Source: Janthinobacterium lividum (GTDB taxonomy: Bacteria; Pseudomonadota; Gammaproteobacteria; Burkholderiales; Burkholderiaceae_D). From it: a DNA stretch of 64,000 nt. Made by a program: the position numbers and the translations under genes. How positions within the stretch are numbered: the stretch's first letter is position 1; every line of letters starts with the position of its first letter. Below, in pieces: positions 9,580 through 43,644 of the stretch. The notes under the pieces are model-generated. The model was not told the DNA's origin. It did no database searches and saw only the letters and a program-made list of their open reading frames with translations. The stretch covers positions 1,054,001 through 1,118,000 of the forward strand of contig NZ_CP139976.1 in the NCBI RefSeq assembly GCF_034424625.1, read 5' to 3'.

Positions 9580-9716
9580 TTTGTTGACGACAATAAACTG
9601 GATTGCTGCCAAAATACCCACAGCGCGGGCGGAATTCAGCTAAAGTATTGTCAATAGTGAACCTTGATGCGGGCGCGGCGCGGCCGGTGTCACTCGACGT
9701 GATTGATGAAGAGTTA

Positions 9717-10997
9717 ATGATCGATATTTCCAGCAACGACATCACCCCGAAACCCTTGCGCGTGCGCGAGTTCTATCTGGGGCGACAACCTATCCTTGAC
9801 CGCAATCAAGCCTTGTTTGGCTATGAGTTGCTTTTCCGCAACGCTCCGGTCGGTCCCGCCAACATTACCAGCGACCTGTCTGCCACGGCATCCGTCATCG
9901 CCCACGCTTCCCAGCTGGGCATGGAAAAGGTCATCGGCGACGCGCTCGGTTTCGTCAACGTCGATGCCGACGTGATCATGAGCGACATCTTCGTGTTTCT
10001 GCCGCGTGAAAAAGTCGTGCTGGAAATCGTTGAATCGATGCCCGTCACGCCGGAAGTGCGTGCACGCATCAGCGAACTGGTGGGCCATGGCTTCACCTTC
10101 GCGTTGGAAAACGTCGTATCCGATACGTCGCAAGTGCAGGAACTGCTGCCACTGGTGCAGTACGTCAAGATGGACATGAGCACGGTCGACCCGAAAGTGC
10201 TGGCAGCGCTGGCGCCCCGTTTCAAGCAGGAAAACAAGAAACTGGTGGCGGAAAAGGTCGAGACGCGCGAAGAATTCAAGTCGGGCCTGGATCTGGGCTT
10301 CGATTACTTCCAGGGCTATTACTTTGCCAAGCCGGCCATCATGACGGGCAAGAAGCTGTCGCCGTCGCAACTGGCAGTCATGGAACTGATGACCTTGGTC
10401 ACATCGGACGCCGACAACATGGATATCGAGCGCGCCATCAAGCGCGACGTGTCGCTGGCCCTGAACCTGCTGCGCCTGGTTAATACGCCGGCCGTGGGCG
10501 CGCGCCAGCGCATCGATTCGCTGAGCCAGGCCGTGACCGTGCTGGGCCGCCGCCAATTGCAGCGCTGGCTGCAAATCATGCTGTACGCGGAACCAAGCAA
10601 GCGCGGCCATAGCATGACGCCGCTGCTGATGCTGGCCACCACGCGCGGCCGCCTGCTGGAATTGCTGGCGCATAAACTGCGCCCGAACCACGCCCATTCG
10701 GCCGATATCGCCTTTACGGTCGGCATCATGTCGCTGATGGATACCCTGTTCGGCGTGCCGATGTCGGAAATCCTCAGCCAGATCGAAGTCATCGACGAAG
10801 TGGCCGAAGCGCTGCTGTCGCGCGAGGGCTTCTACGGCGACCTGCTGCGCTTGGCCGAATGCATCGAGCGCATCGAAGACATGGAAGGCGAAATCGTGCC
10901 AACCTTGCGCGACCTGGCCATGTCGCCGGACGACCTGGTGGAGCTGGAAATGGCCGCCTACGAATGGAGCGATAACGTAGTCCGCTACGCGCTGTAG
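9717..10997 (+). CDS. EAL-HDOD domain protein (YuxH type), probably non-catalytic EAL
   Basis: The protein has 426 residues if the ATG at 9717 is used; the frame stays open to 9603, so the start is uncertain. The first half is an EAL fold: ExLxR kept as ELLFR (37-41), substrate asparagine in FVNVDADV, glutamate in VVLEIVES, lysine in YVKMDMS and glutamate in VAEKVET. The metal-binding DDFG loop is replaced by LENVVSD, so c-di-GMP hydrolysis is unlikely and ligand sensing or protein binding is more probable. The second half is an HDOD domain (from about 215, SPSQLAVMELMTLV). The TAG stop lies inside a palindromic repeat. Confidence 0.88.
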   Translation: MIDISSNDITPKPLRVREFYLGRQPILDRNQALFGYELLFRNAPVGPANITSDLSATASVIAHASQLGMEKVIGDALGFVNVDADVIMSDIFVFLPREKVVLEIVESMPVTPEVRARISELVGHGFTFALENVVSDTSQVQELLPLVQYVKMDMSTVDPKVLAALAPRFKQENKKLVAEKVETREEFKSGLDLGFDYFQGYYFAKPAIMTGKKLSPSQLAVMELMTLVTSDADNMDIERAIKRDVSLALNLLRLVNTPAVGARQRIDSLSQAVTVLGRRQLQRWLQIMLYAEPSKRGHSMTPLLMLATTRGRLLELLAHKLRPNHAHSADIAFTVGIMSLMDTLFGVPMSEILSQIEVIDEVAEALLSREGFYGDLLRLAECIERIEDMEGEIVPTLRDLAMSPDDLVELEMAAYEWSDNVVRYAL

Positions 10998-11097
10998 GTC
11001 GGATTAGCGCGGCCGCCAGGCCACGCGTAATCCGACTACATTGTTGACGCTGATCGTAGTGATGTCGGATTACGGCCTGCGGCCTAATCCGACCTAC
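10994..11097. repeat. REP/BIME-like paired palindromic repeat, copy 1
   Basis: Two palindromic units built on GTAGGTCGGATTA / TAATCCGAC stand head-to-head (10994-11038 and 11063-11097) with about 24 bases between. The second unit (35 bases) is the exact reverse complement of the first unit of the copy at 42479-42571. The TAG stop of the EAL-HDOD gene (10995-10997) is part of the element. Confidence 0.85.
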
Positions 11098-11108
11098 CCC
11101 ATTTATCT

Positions 11109-11149
11109 AAAAGAGCCCTGCACGGCGTCGCCGTGGCAGGGCTTTTTTA
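11109..11149. terminator. Bidirectional rho-independent terminator
   Basis: A GCCCTG-CACGGC stem with a one-base bulge pairs with GCCGTGGCAGGGC and is followed by TTTTTT, with an A-run on the left. It lies between the convergent EAL-HDOD gene and the SPW-repeat gene. Confidence 0.8.
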
Positions 11150-41806: not shown

Positions 41807-41837
41807 TCATGCTTTACTACTCATGAGCATAGCCACG

Positions 41838-42482
41838 ATGACCGCGAACCGCCATTTTGACCCCCTGGATCGTTTGATTGTTGGCGCCGACAAGGCCCTG
41901 CGCGTCATGGCGGGCGTGGCCTCGGCCTCGCGCCCCACGCCGGCCGCGCATGCGCCCGATGCGGAGCTGAGTCCGGCCGAGCAGCGCCACAGTGCCGGCT
42001 TGATGCGCGTCAACCATGTGGGCGAAGTGTGCGCACAAGCCCTGTACAACTCGCAGGCGCGCTATGCGCACAGCCCGGCCATCCGCGCCCAGTTCGACGA
42101 AGCGGGACGCGAAGAGGAAGACCACCTGGCATGGACGGCGCAGCGCCTGACGGAGCTGGGCTCGCGTCTGAGCCTGCTCAATCCCCTGTGGTATGCGGGT
42201 TCGTTTGCGCTGGGCACCATCGCCGCGCGCATGGGCGACGGCCGCAGCCTGGGTTTTGTGGTGGAAACGGAACGCCAGGTGGAAGCGCACCTGGCCAGTC
42301 ACCTGGAAGAATTGCCGCCGCAGGACGCCAAGTCGCGCGCCATCGTCAAGCAGATGGCCATCGACGAAGTGGAGCACGGCGCCGCCGCCCAGCGGCTGGG
42401 CGCCATCGATACCCCGGCGCCCGTGAAGGCGTTGATGGGCATCATGGGGAAAGTGATGACAAAAACGGCGTATTACTTGTAG
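41838..42482 (+). CDS. coq7: 3-demethoxyubiquinol 3-hydroxylase
   Basis: The protein has 214 residues from ATG 41838 ([20 protein letters not shown]); ATG 41823 is an in-frame alternative. Coq7 is a di-iron monooxygenase that adds the hydroxyl group to demethoxyubiquinol in aerobic ubiquinone synthesis. Both di-iron ExxH motifs are visible: REEEDHLAW and DEVEHGAAA. Additional glutamates lie in [16 protein letters not shown] and [11 protein letters not shown]. Its TAG stop (42480-42482) lies in a palindromic repeat. The convergent neighbour is an OsmC-family gene. Confidence 0.96.
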
Positions 42483-42571
42483 GTCGGATTAGGCCGCAGG
42501 CCGTAATCCGACAACATTGCTGGCGTCGGCGGTGTTGTCGGATTACGCGCTGGCGCGCTAATCCGACCTAC
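42479..42571. repeat. REP/BIME-like paired palindromic repeat, copy 2
   Basis: Two palindromic units of the GTAGGTCGGATTA family (42479-42513 and 42536-42571) flank a spacer of about 22 bases. The first unit is the exact reverse complement of bases 11063-11097. Both ends supply stop codons: TAG of coq7 on the plus strand and TAG of the OsmC gene on the minus strand (42568-42570). No other terminator is present between these genes. Confidence 0.87.
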
Positions 42572-42990
42572 TCTTCGATAATCTCGAAGGAATGGGTAAT
42601 TTCCGCCGTCTTCGCCAGCATGATCGACGCCGAGCAATATTTGTCATGCGACAAGGCCACGGCCCGTTCCACGGCCGTCGGTTTCAGGGACTTGCCCCGC
42701 ACGGTGAAGTGGAAGTGGATCTTGGTAAATACTTTCGGGTCGGTGTCGGCGCGGTCGGCCTTCAGGGTCACTTCGCAGCCGCTGACGGCTTCGCGCCCGC
42801 GTTTCAGGATCAGCACCACGTCATAGGCGGTGCAGCCGCCCGTGCCCAGCAAGACCATTTCCATGGGGCGTGGCGCCAGGTTGTGGCCGCCGCCATCGGG
42901 CGCGCCATCCATGGTCACCAGGTGGCCGGAACCCGTTTCTGCCCGAAAACTCATGCCCGACGGGCCATTCCAGCTGACTTTGCATTCCAT
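42568..42990 (-). CDS. OsmC-family peroxiredoxin-like protein
   Basis: The protein has 140 residues from ATG 42990, behind GGAGAG; the frame is open to 43101 but without a start site of quality. OsmC/Ohr-type proteins reduce organic hydroperoxides with a cysteine pair. Both are present: Cys in GTGGCTAYDVVLILKRGRE and Cys in HDKYCSASIMLAKTAEI. The N-terminus MECKVSWNGPSGMSF matches the YhfA-like OsmC group. The stop codon is formed by the palindromic repeat it shares with convergent coq7. Confidence 0.9.
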   Translation of the reverse strand: MECKVSWNGPSGMSFRAETGSGHLVTMDGAPDGGGHNLAPRPMEMVLLGTGGCTAYDVVLILKRGREAVSGCEVTLKADRADTDPKVFTKIHFHFTVRGKSLKPTAVERAVALSHDKYCSASIMLAKTAEITHSFEIIEE

Positions 42991-43215: not shown

Positions 43216-43644
43216 ATGAAAACATTTTCCGCTAAAGGACATGAAGTCCAGCGCGATTGGTTCGTGGTTGACGCGACGGACAAAGTCCTCGGACGTGTTG
43301 CCAGCGAAGTGGCACTCCGACTGCGCGGCAAACACAAACCAGAATTTACTCCTCACGTCGATACCGGCGACTTCATCGTCGTCATCAACGCAGGCAAACT
43401 GCGTGTGACCGGTACCAAAGCTACTGAGAAAATTTACTACCGTCACTCTGGCTATCCAGGCGGCATCTACGAAACCAACTTCCAGAAAATGCAACAGCGT
43501 TTTCCAGGTCGCGCGCTTGAGAAAGCGGTCAAAGGCATGCTGCCTAAAGGCCCACTCGGCTACGCAATGATCAAGAAGCTGAAAGTGTACGCGGAAGGTT
43601 CCCATCCGCACGCTGCTCAGCAACCTAAAGCACTTGTTCTCTAA
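43216..43644 (+). CDS. rplM: Large ribosomal subunit protein uL13
   Basis: This 142-residue protein is a 23S rRNA-binding primary assembly protein of the large subunit. It reads [20 protein letters not shown], then [20 protein letters not shown] and the signature [19 protein letters not shown], full length. The start follows TAGGAAG. It is followed 9 bases later by rpsI, the conserved two-gene order. Codon use is visibly less GC-biased than neighbours (more A/T at third positions), as expected for highly expressed ribosomal genes. A strong promoter lies upstream. Confidence 0.98.

Follow-up and report, generated by a model that had tools for sequence, protein, structure and literature searches.

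The closest described systems are the GTAG-type REP/BIME/REPIN repeats. In three accounts (PMC3733652, PMC2817692, PMC3116915), these repeats carry a GTAG head and a hairpin of ~30 nt, form inverted pairs, reach high copy number and lie mostly 3' of genes, and the repeats analysed here are alike in each of these respects. That the ends of GTAG repeats often supply TAG stop codons is already in print (PMC3733652). Section 15 of that paper, unlike the present analysis, neither counts stop overlaps nor compares the stops with those of repeat-free orthologues, and Janthinobacterium is absent from the text of the paper. A search of open-access papers at the level of titles and listings found no literature on the present repeat family or on a comparison of its orthologues. 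The orthologue comparison of the fused stops is what is new here; the overlap itself was already known.

REPs next to stop codons have also been studied in E. coli; according to PMC12306157, they can stall ribosomes when the stop is no more than 15 nt away. As described there, the two systems are alike in placing a stable hairpin right after a stop codon. They differ in that here the stop lies in the head, at a spacing of zero. By analogy with the E. coli REPs near stops, fused stops may terminate slowly.

The window is a stretch of 64,000 nucleotides from Janthinobacterium lividum (contig NZ_CP139976.1, positions 1,054,001 to 1,118,000), and all coordinates refer to it unless a genome or a fetched locus (L076 and the like) is named. 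Two inverted repeat pairs and the three genes that end in them are listed in Table 1. Direct reading confirmed that the repeat begins with GTAG and that the EAL-HDOD gene, coq7 and the OsmC gene all stop at its TAG, as first observed.

Table 1. Repeat pairs, stop codons and genes of the window (positions within the 64,000 nucleotides).
Feature	Positions	Strand	Sequence	Remarks
REP pair (BIME/REPIN), inverted, GTAG-headed	42479..42571		GTAGGTCGGATTAG...CTAATCCGACCTAC	occupies the whole convergent coq7-OsmC interval
First REP, GTAG head plus hairpin	42479..42512	+	GTCGGATTAGGCC.. (hairpin)	single-hairpin fold -18.9 kcal/mol
Second REP, inverted	42537..42571	-		GTAG head 42571-42568; fold of 42538-42571 (-) -17.7 kcal/mol
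Second REP pair of the window	10994..11097			likewise GTAG-headed; from sequence reading and RNA fold
coq7 stop	42480..42482	+	TAG of head	
OsmC-gene stop	42568..42570	-	TAG of second head	
EAL-HDOD-gene stop	10995..10997	+	TAG of head	
coq7	41823..42482	+		Pfam COQ7 PF03232; start from codon model; longest ORF from 41775
OsmC-like gene	42568..42990	-		Pfam PF02566; start from codon model; longest ORF from 43101
EAL-HDOD gene	9699..10997	+		EAL and HDOD domains (Pfam); start from codon model; longest ORF from 9603

The coq7-OsmC pair is predicted to fold into one long hairpin on either strand (-71 kcal/mol, z -11.0 on the + strand; -59.6 kcal/mol, z -9.4 on the - strand). On the basis of this fold, the coq7 and OsmC mRNAs would both be expected to have their 3' ends within the hairpin. 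Both genes end inside the element, and positions 42300-42800, which include the interval between them, held no terminator-like site matching the one pattern searched, in agreement with the earlier claim that no other terminator lies between the two genes. Past the other repeat pair of the window, at ~11115-11149, a G+C-rich inverted repeat is followed by a run of T. By eye this is a likely terminator; a narrower terminator pattern had no match there. Membership in the Rfam family naRNA4 (RF02564), an E. coli REP-derived RNA, was rejected on the covariance score: positions 42482-42568 align over the whole model with 30.6 bits (E 0.005), well below the gathering score of 59.5.

The 6.76 Mb genome to which the window belongs was searched for GTAGGTCGGATTA with at most one mismatch, which gave 159 sites, 81 on the forward and 78 on the reverse strand; a control pattern had a single match. 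Exact GTAGGTCGGNTTA heads numbered 126, of which 94 have A at base 10 and 32 do not. The first base of GTAG is nearly invariant, G in 126 heads of this genome and another base in only 2; a head that has A there (L414) is likewise at offset 0 from a stop. When the head motif was relaxed slightly, the window and the fetched loci yielded 27 inverted pairs, each 80-134 bp long. A same-strand gene end lies within -600 to +150 of 100/125 heads, so the repeats are mostly 3' of genes, and no head was inside a called gene by the test of the codon-usage script described below. With GTAG at the foot of a hairpin, high copy number, inverted pairs at short spacing and a mostly extragenic location, the element is a GTAG-type REP pair (BIME/REPIN) located just downstream of genes. 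The 14-mer GTAGGTCGGATTAG was also present in contigs of Marinobacter, Buttiauxella, Nitrospira and others, among the matches listed.

A Y1 transposase gene (RAYT) flanked by the same REP marks a RAYT-mobilised family. Y1_Tnp matches numbered 96 across 40 genomes, and the 31 loci checked among them (2 in the same genome as the window, 29 in other genomes of the genus) had no GTAGGTCGG-type head within 1.5 kb. Unlike RAYT-associated GTAG REPs, the present family thus has no cognate RAYT beside it in these 31/96 matches. The two Y1 transposase matches of the J. lividum genome itself are at genome positions 5222009-5222338 (L008) and 159576-159890 (L009); one of them has an in-frame TGA, and neither is near the repeat.

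The position of each head relative to the nearest gene end was then tabulated. The offset was measured between the T of GTAG and the closest stop on the same strand, and the table covers the 125 exact GTAGGTCGGNTTA heads of the fetched loci, leaving aside 33 other one-mismatch sites (159 - 126). Genes were called using a codon-usage script trained on the fetched loci, which missed some genes (e.g. the ORF at 43216-43644). Offset 0 was found for 17/125 heads, and no other single offset exceeded 5. Another 5/125 heads had offset +10, in which the stop is the TAG of GATTAG. Among the remaining heads the offset was -25 to -7 in 28, further upstream in 50 and out of range in 25; none of the 125 heads had a gene end at any other offset between -6 and +150. 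If all 25 allowed offsets were equally likely, 17 of 50 heads at one of them would have a binomial probability of 5e-12. Use of the repeat's TAG as a stop codon is thus far above that of neighbouring offsets, as the original prediction had expected of a genome-wide tabulation, and random distances between element ends and stops were not seen. TAG was also frequent among stops located 1-30 nt before a head (8/28, vs 23/231 in genes >200 bp from a repeat core; p = 0.0096); 3 of these 8 (L081, L023 and L076) read TAGGT, which resembles a decayed or duplicated head.

Heads in other genomes were sampled from 120 contig stretches, among the matches listed, and examined using a crude frame test that ignores real gene calls and takes the longest upstream frame that is open for at least 150 codons. 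The frame ended at the TAG in 22 heads of the J. lividum genome, at GATTAG in 10 and read through in 6. The corresponding counts elsewhere, 6/6/0 in other Janthinobacterium (46 heads) and 7/4/5 in other genera (116 heads), contain no clear excess of the TAG frame. The crude test gives no support for a wider rule beyond the J. lividum genome.

A comparison of coq7 loci with and without the element had been proposed, to see whether the C-terminus changed. The coq7 and OsmC gene ends were compared in 30 genomes of the genus, out of 40 searched. coq7 ends at the same codon in 30/30. The stop is the repeat's TAG in 4 of these; among the other 26 the repeat is slightly downstream in 7 and absent within 60 bases in 19. 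The last residues are YYI in 22 genomes, YYL in 7 and YYV in 1. The C-terminus is therefore not altered by the element beyond, at most, the last residue (Ile/Val to Leu), and Leu is also found in 3 genomes without a fused repeat. The OsmC gene has the same stop codon in 24/30 genomes and extends two codons further in the other 6.

Fifteen other offset-0 genes, including the EAL-HDOD gene, were compared with their orthologues in seven ingroup genomes and in an outgroup clade of four more distant genomes. Rows with <80% identity (74% in the outgroup clade) or an unaligned gene end were dropped, which left 91 ingroup orthologues. Degenerate or duplicated heads at the stop were reassigned by hand to the repeat-stop class, which reduced the orthologues without a repeat-borne stop from 58 to 54 in the ingroup and from 51 to 50 in the outgroup clade. 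A repeat-borne stop, intact or degenerate, was found in 37 ingroup orthologues, 35/37 of them at the codon used in the J. lividum genome. Without a repeat-borne stop, 42/54 orthologues also end at that codon (TAA 25, TGA 9, TAG 8). The exceptions are 12 orthologues in four genes (s4, s7, s11 and s12) that differ by 1 to 4 codons; among the ingroup orthologues of s4, s7 and s11 that lack a repeat stop, none uses the J. lividum codon. The outgroup clade contributed 54 orthologues, 4 with a repeat stop and 33/50 of the others at the J. lividum codon. Pooled over ingroup and outgroup clade, same-codon stops without the repeat are TAA in 42, TGA in 19 and TAG in 14. In the offset-0 class the repeat thus mostly re-spells the native stop, and the protein is unchanged in most cases. 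The five offset +10 genes are different: the repeat encodes their last three residues, RSD, and only 1/20 repeat-free orthologues ends at the same codon.

These results divide the proposal that the element serves as a supplier of stop codons at the 3' ends of genes. The TAG is used in excess and the repeats are mostly 3' of genes, as proposed. The gene end, on the other hand, is mostly pre-existing, since relatives that lack a repeat-borne stop terminate there too, by TAA, TGA or TAG.

Some gene ends are found both fused to the repeat and separated from it by a short spacer. The OsmC gene is fused in 6 genomes, as GAG TAG GTCGG in 5 and GAG TAG ATCGG in 1. Four genomes have the same repeat in spaced form, TGA N GTAGGTCGG with a one-base spacer, preceded by GAA in 3 and GAG in 1. 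On a tree of the flanking genes the fused label requires 5 changes, each of them imposed by branches with good support. One well-supported clade pairs a fused with a spaced form as sisters, and in two further clades the two forms are closely related. The fused label was not more clustered than shuffled labels (181/500 as low), which fits recurrent switching and also fits exchange of gene ends between strains. Elsewhere, spaced AAG TAA AAGGC GTAGG (L426) corresponds to fused AAG TAG GTCGG (J. lividum genome, L224), and spaced AAG TAA ATAGAATC GTAGG (L199) likewise to a fused AAG TAG GTCGG in the J. lividum genome. The gene end at L064 exists in three forms: fused CAG TAG GTCCG (L405), a 7-base offset CAATAGACAGTAGG in the J. 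lividum genome, and one cut after GTAGGTCGGA (L379).

We favour an origin of the fused ends by small deletions that remove both native stop and spacer, with the repeat's TAG rescuing the gene end, over the other explanations considered below, and put its chance of being correct at about one half. The repeat would first come to lie a few bases 3' of the native stop. Small deletions would then take out the native stop and the spacer, and a deletion would be tolerated when it joins GTAG in frame to the last codon, because translation then halts immediately at the head, whose G, in the third codon position, often leaves the residue the same. Once formed, a fused end would be kept because its loss is the loss of the stop. 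The stop would then be at the foot of a long predicted RNA hairpin over the 3' end, which should protect the end of the mRNA and may slow termination. The spike at offset 0, the same stop position in orthologues without a repeat-borne stop, the fused and spaced forms of one repeat and the raised use of TAG by genes that end 1-30 nt before a head all argue for deletion. The OsmC forms in particular favour it, since fusion takes one step rescued by the TAG, while making a new TGA and spacer by insertion is less simple; the reverse direction at OsmC, from fused to spaced, may also have occurred. Several observations argue against deletion. Random deletions should often cost 1-3 C-terminal codons, yet 35/37 repeat-stop orthologues end at the J. 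lividum codon, a figure in which many orthologues may share one fusion by descent. Short spacers would also be expected at offsets -6 to -3, where the J. lividum genome has no gene ends. The unclustered fused label, the TAG at 4/5 near-clean empty sites (see below), which direct insertion after TAG would produce, and the lack of a TAG-frame excess in other genera in the crude test count against it as well. Somewhat more tentatively than deletion itself, and at a little below even confidence, we suggest that the native stop is repeatedly captured in this way: replaced at the same codon through loss of stop and spacer, with the protein unchanged, the hairpin tied to the termination codon and a selfish repeat made hard to lose.

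The main competitor is target-directed insertion, in which the repeat enters right 3' of an existing TAG or GTAG, so that the TAG would be the gene's native stop from the outset. IS200/IS605 elements likewise use a short target and enter on its 3' side. The insertion at gene ends that was first proposed is one of two live options for the fusion route, although at OsmC the evidence points rather to a spacer lost afterwards, and we regard it as rather unlikely. The near-invariant G of GTAG (126 vs 2) fits both routes. A target was looked for at same-codon stops of orthologues without a repeat stop. The G before the stop is enriched there (20/42 in the ingroup and 16/33 in the outgroup clade vs 52/231; pooled 36/75, p = 6e-5, with rows that are not independent), and GTAG is found at 4/42 and 2/33 vs 5/231. 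TAG itself, at 8/42 and 6/33 vs 23/231, is slightly but not significantly enriched (pooled 14/75, p = 0.064). When only the closest such orthologue of each gene is taken, G is present in 8/12 (p = 0.0013) and TAG in 3/12 (p = 0.11), one of the three TAG cases being L134, later classed as a degenerate repeat. Near-clean empty sites have TAG in 4/5, but these sites were picked post hoc (L163 and L167 were dropped as apparent repeat remnants, and L142, with 15 nt, was added) and could equally be losses. Six sites have no more than 12 nt between the stop and the resumed right flank, and they split evenly, 3 with TAG and 3 with TAA. Where relatives lack a repeat stop, the codon is usually TAA or TGA, and in s3 five relatives read ACC TGA where the fused forms read ACG TAG. 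The absence of a Y1 transposase gene near the repeat in the 31 loci also speaks against this route. A strict GTAG target site was rejected, since the stops of relatives without the repeat stop are mostly TAA or TGA, and insertion next to such a site is retained only as a rival. Away from stops, no unambiguous clean empty site was found among 30 loci of a longer list (flanks of 16/27 pairs, 40 genomes): the candidate L379 is a truncated repeat, and L385, L388 and L392 have the same length with another palindrome.

Two further explanations are considered improbable. Repeats might land anywhere near gene ends, the frames with an immediate stop being the least harmful survivors. Of the three frames, two do meet an early stop in the head (TAG at base 2 and GATTAG ending at base 14), five genes end at its second stop with repeat-coded RSD, and the crude frame test above yields both kinds of stop together with read-through. 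Random insertion with tolerance nevertheless predicts truncated proteins and equal frames, whereas the called genes of the J. lividum genome are divided 17 vs 5 (p = 0.017) and the offset-0 class mostly retains its protein length. With a chance that is, if anything, a shade lower, gene ends together with their downstream repeats or terminators might be swapped whole by recombination between strains, so that a fused end spreads as an allele. Repeat-free orthologues often have other repeats or terminator-like hairpins right after the same stop, and the end states of coq7 and OsmC are scattered on the flanking-gene tree. Such exchange would move fused ends about, but it leaves the preference for offset 0 unexplained.

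The comparison adds that the overlap is mostly no accident of truncation: the repeat takes over a stop at an existing gene end, and at one locus it has apparently done so repeatedly. Short repeats would thereby have a simple route to becoming needed by their host. The natural pairs of fused and spaced ends, with the same gene and the same repeat, are material for measuring the effect of a hairpin at a stop codon.

Several minor features of the gene ends were recorded. Other repeat-like stretches replace the REP right after the same stops (L091, L096, L097, L101, L110, L118, L171, L206 and L209); they are of the types GCGCGTCGGTATAGGCGGCCTGCGATG.., GGGGTCAGACCCGNCGGGTCTGACCCC and CGCCTGA..GGCGC, and one such stretch provides the last codons and the TGA of OsmC in 6/30 genomes. 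Hairpin tips at a given gene end vary strongly from one relative to another and are mostly still self-complementary, for example at coq7 in L090 and L104. Recurrent insertion was considered as a reading of these tips, which are identical in 11/62 orthologous pairs vs 127/7503 random pairs within the J. lividum genome, and was set aside because turnover in place explains the tips equally well. Tandem copies of the first 9-10 bases of a head (GTAGGTCGG, GTAGGTCGGC), up to several units, often stand in front of it, as in L076 (head at 2483), L087 (2495), L085 (2459) and L078 (2517) of the J. lividum genome and in L187, L137 and L409 of relatives. The TAG of the outermost tandem copy is the stop codon in L076, L215 and L200.
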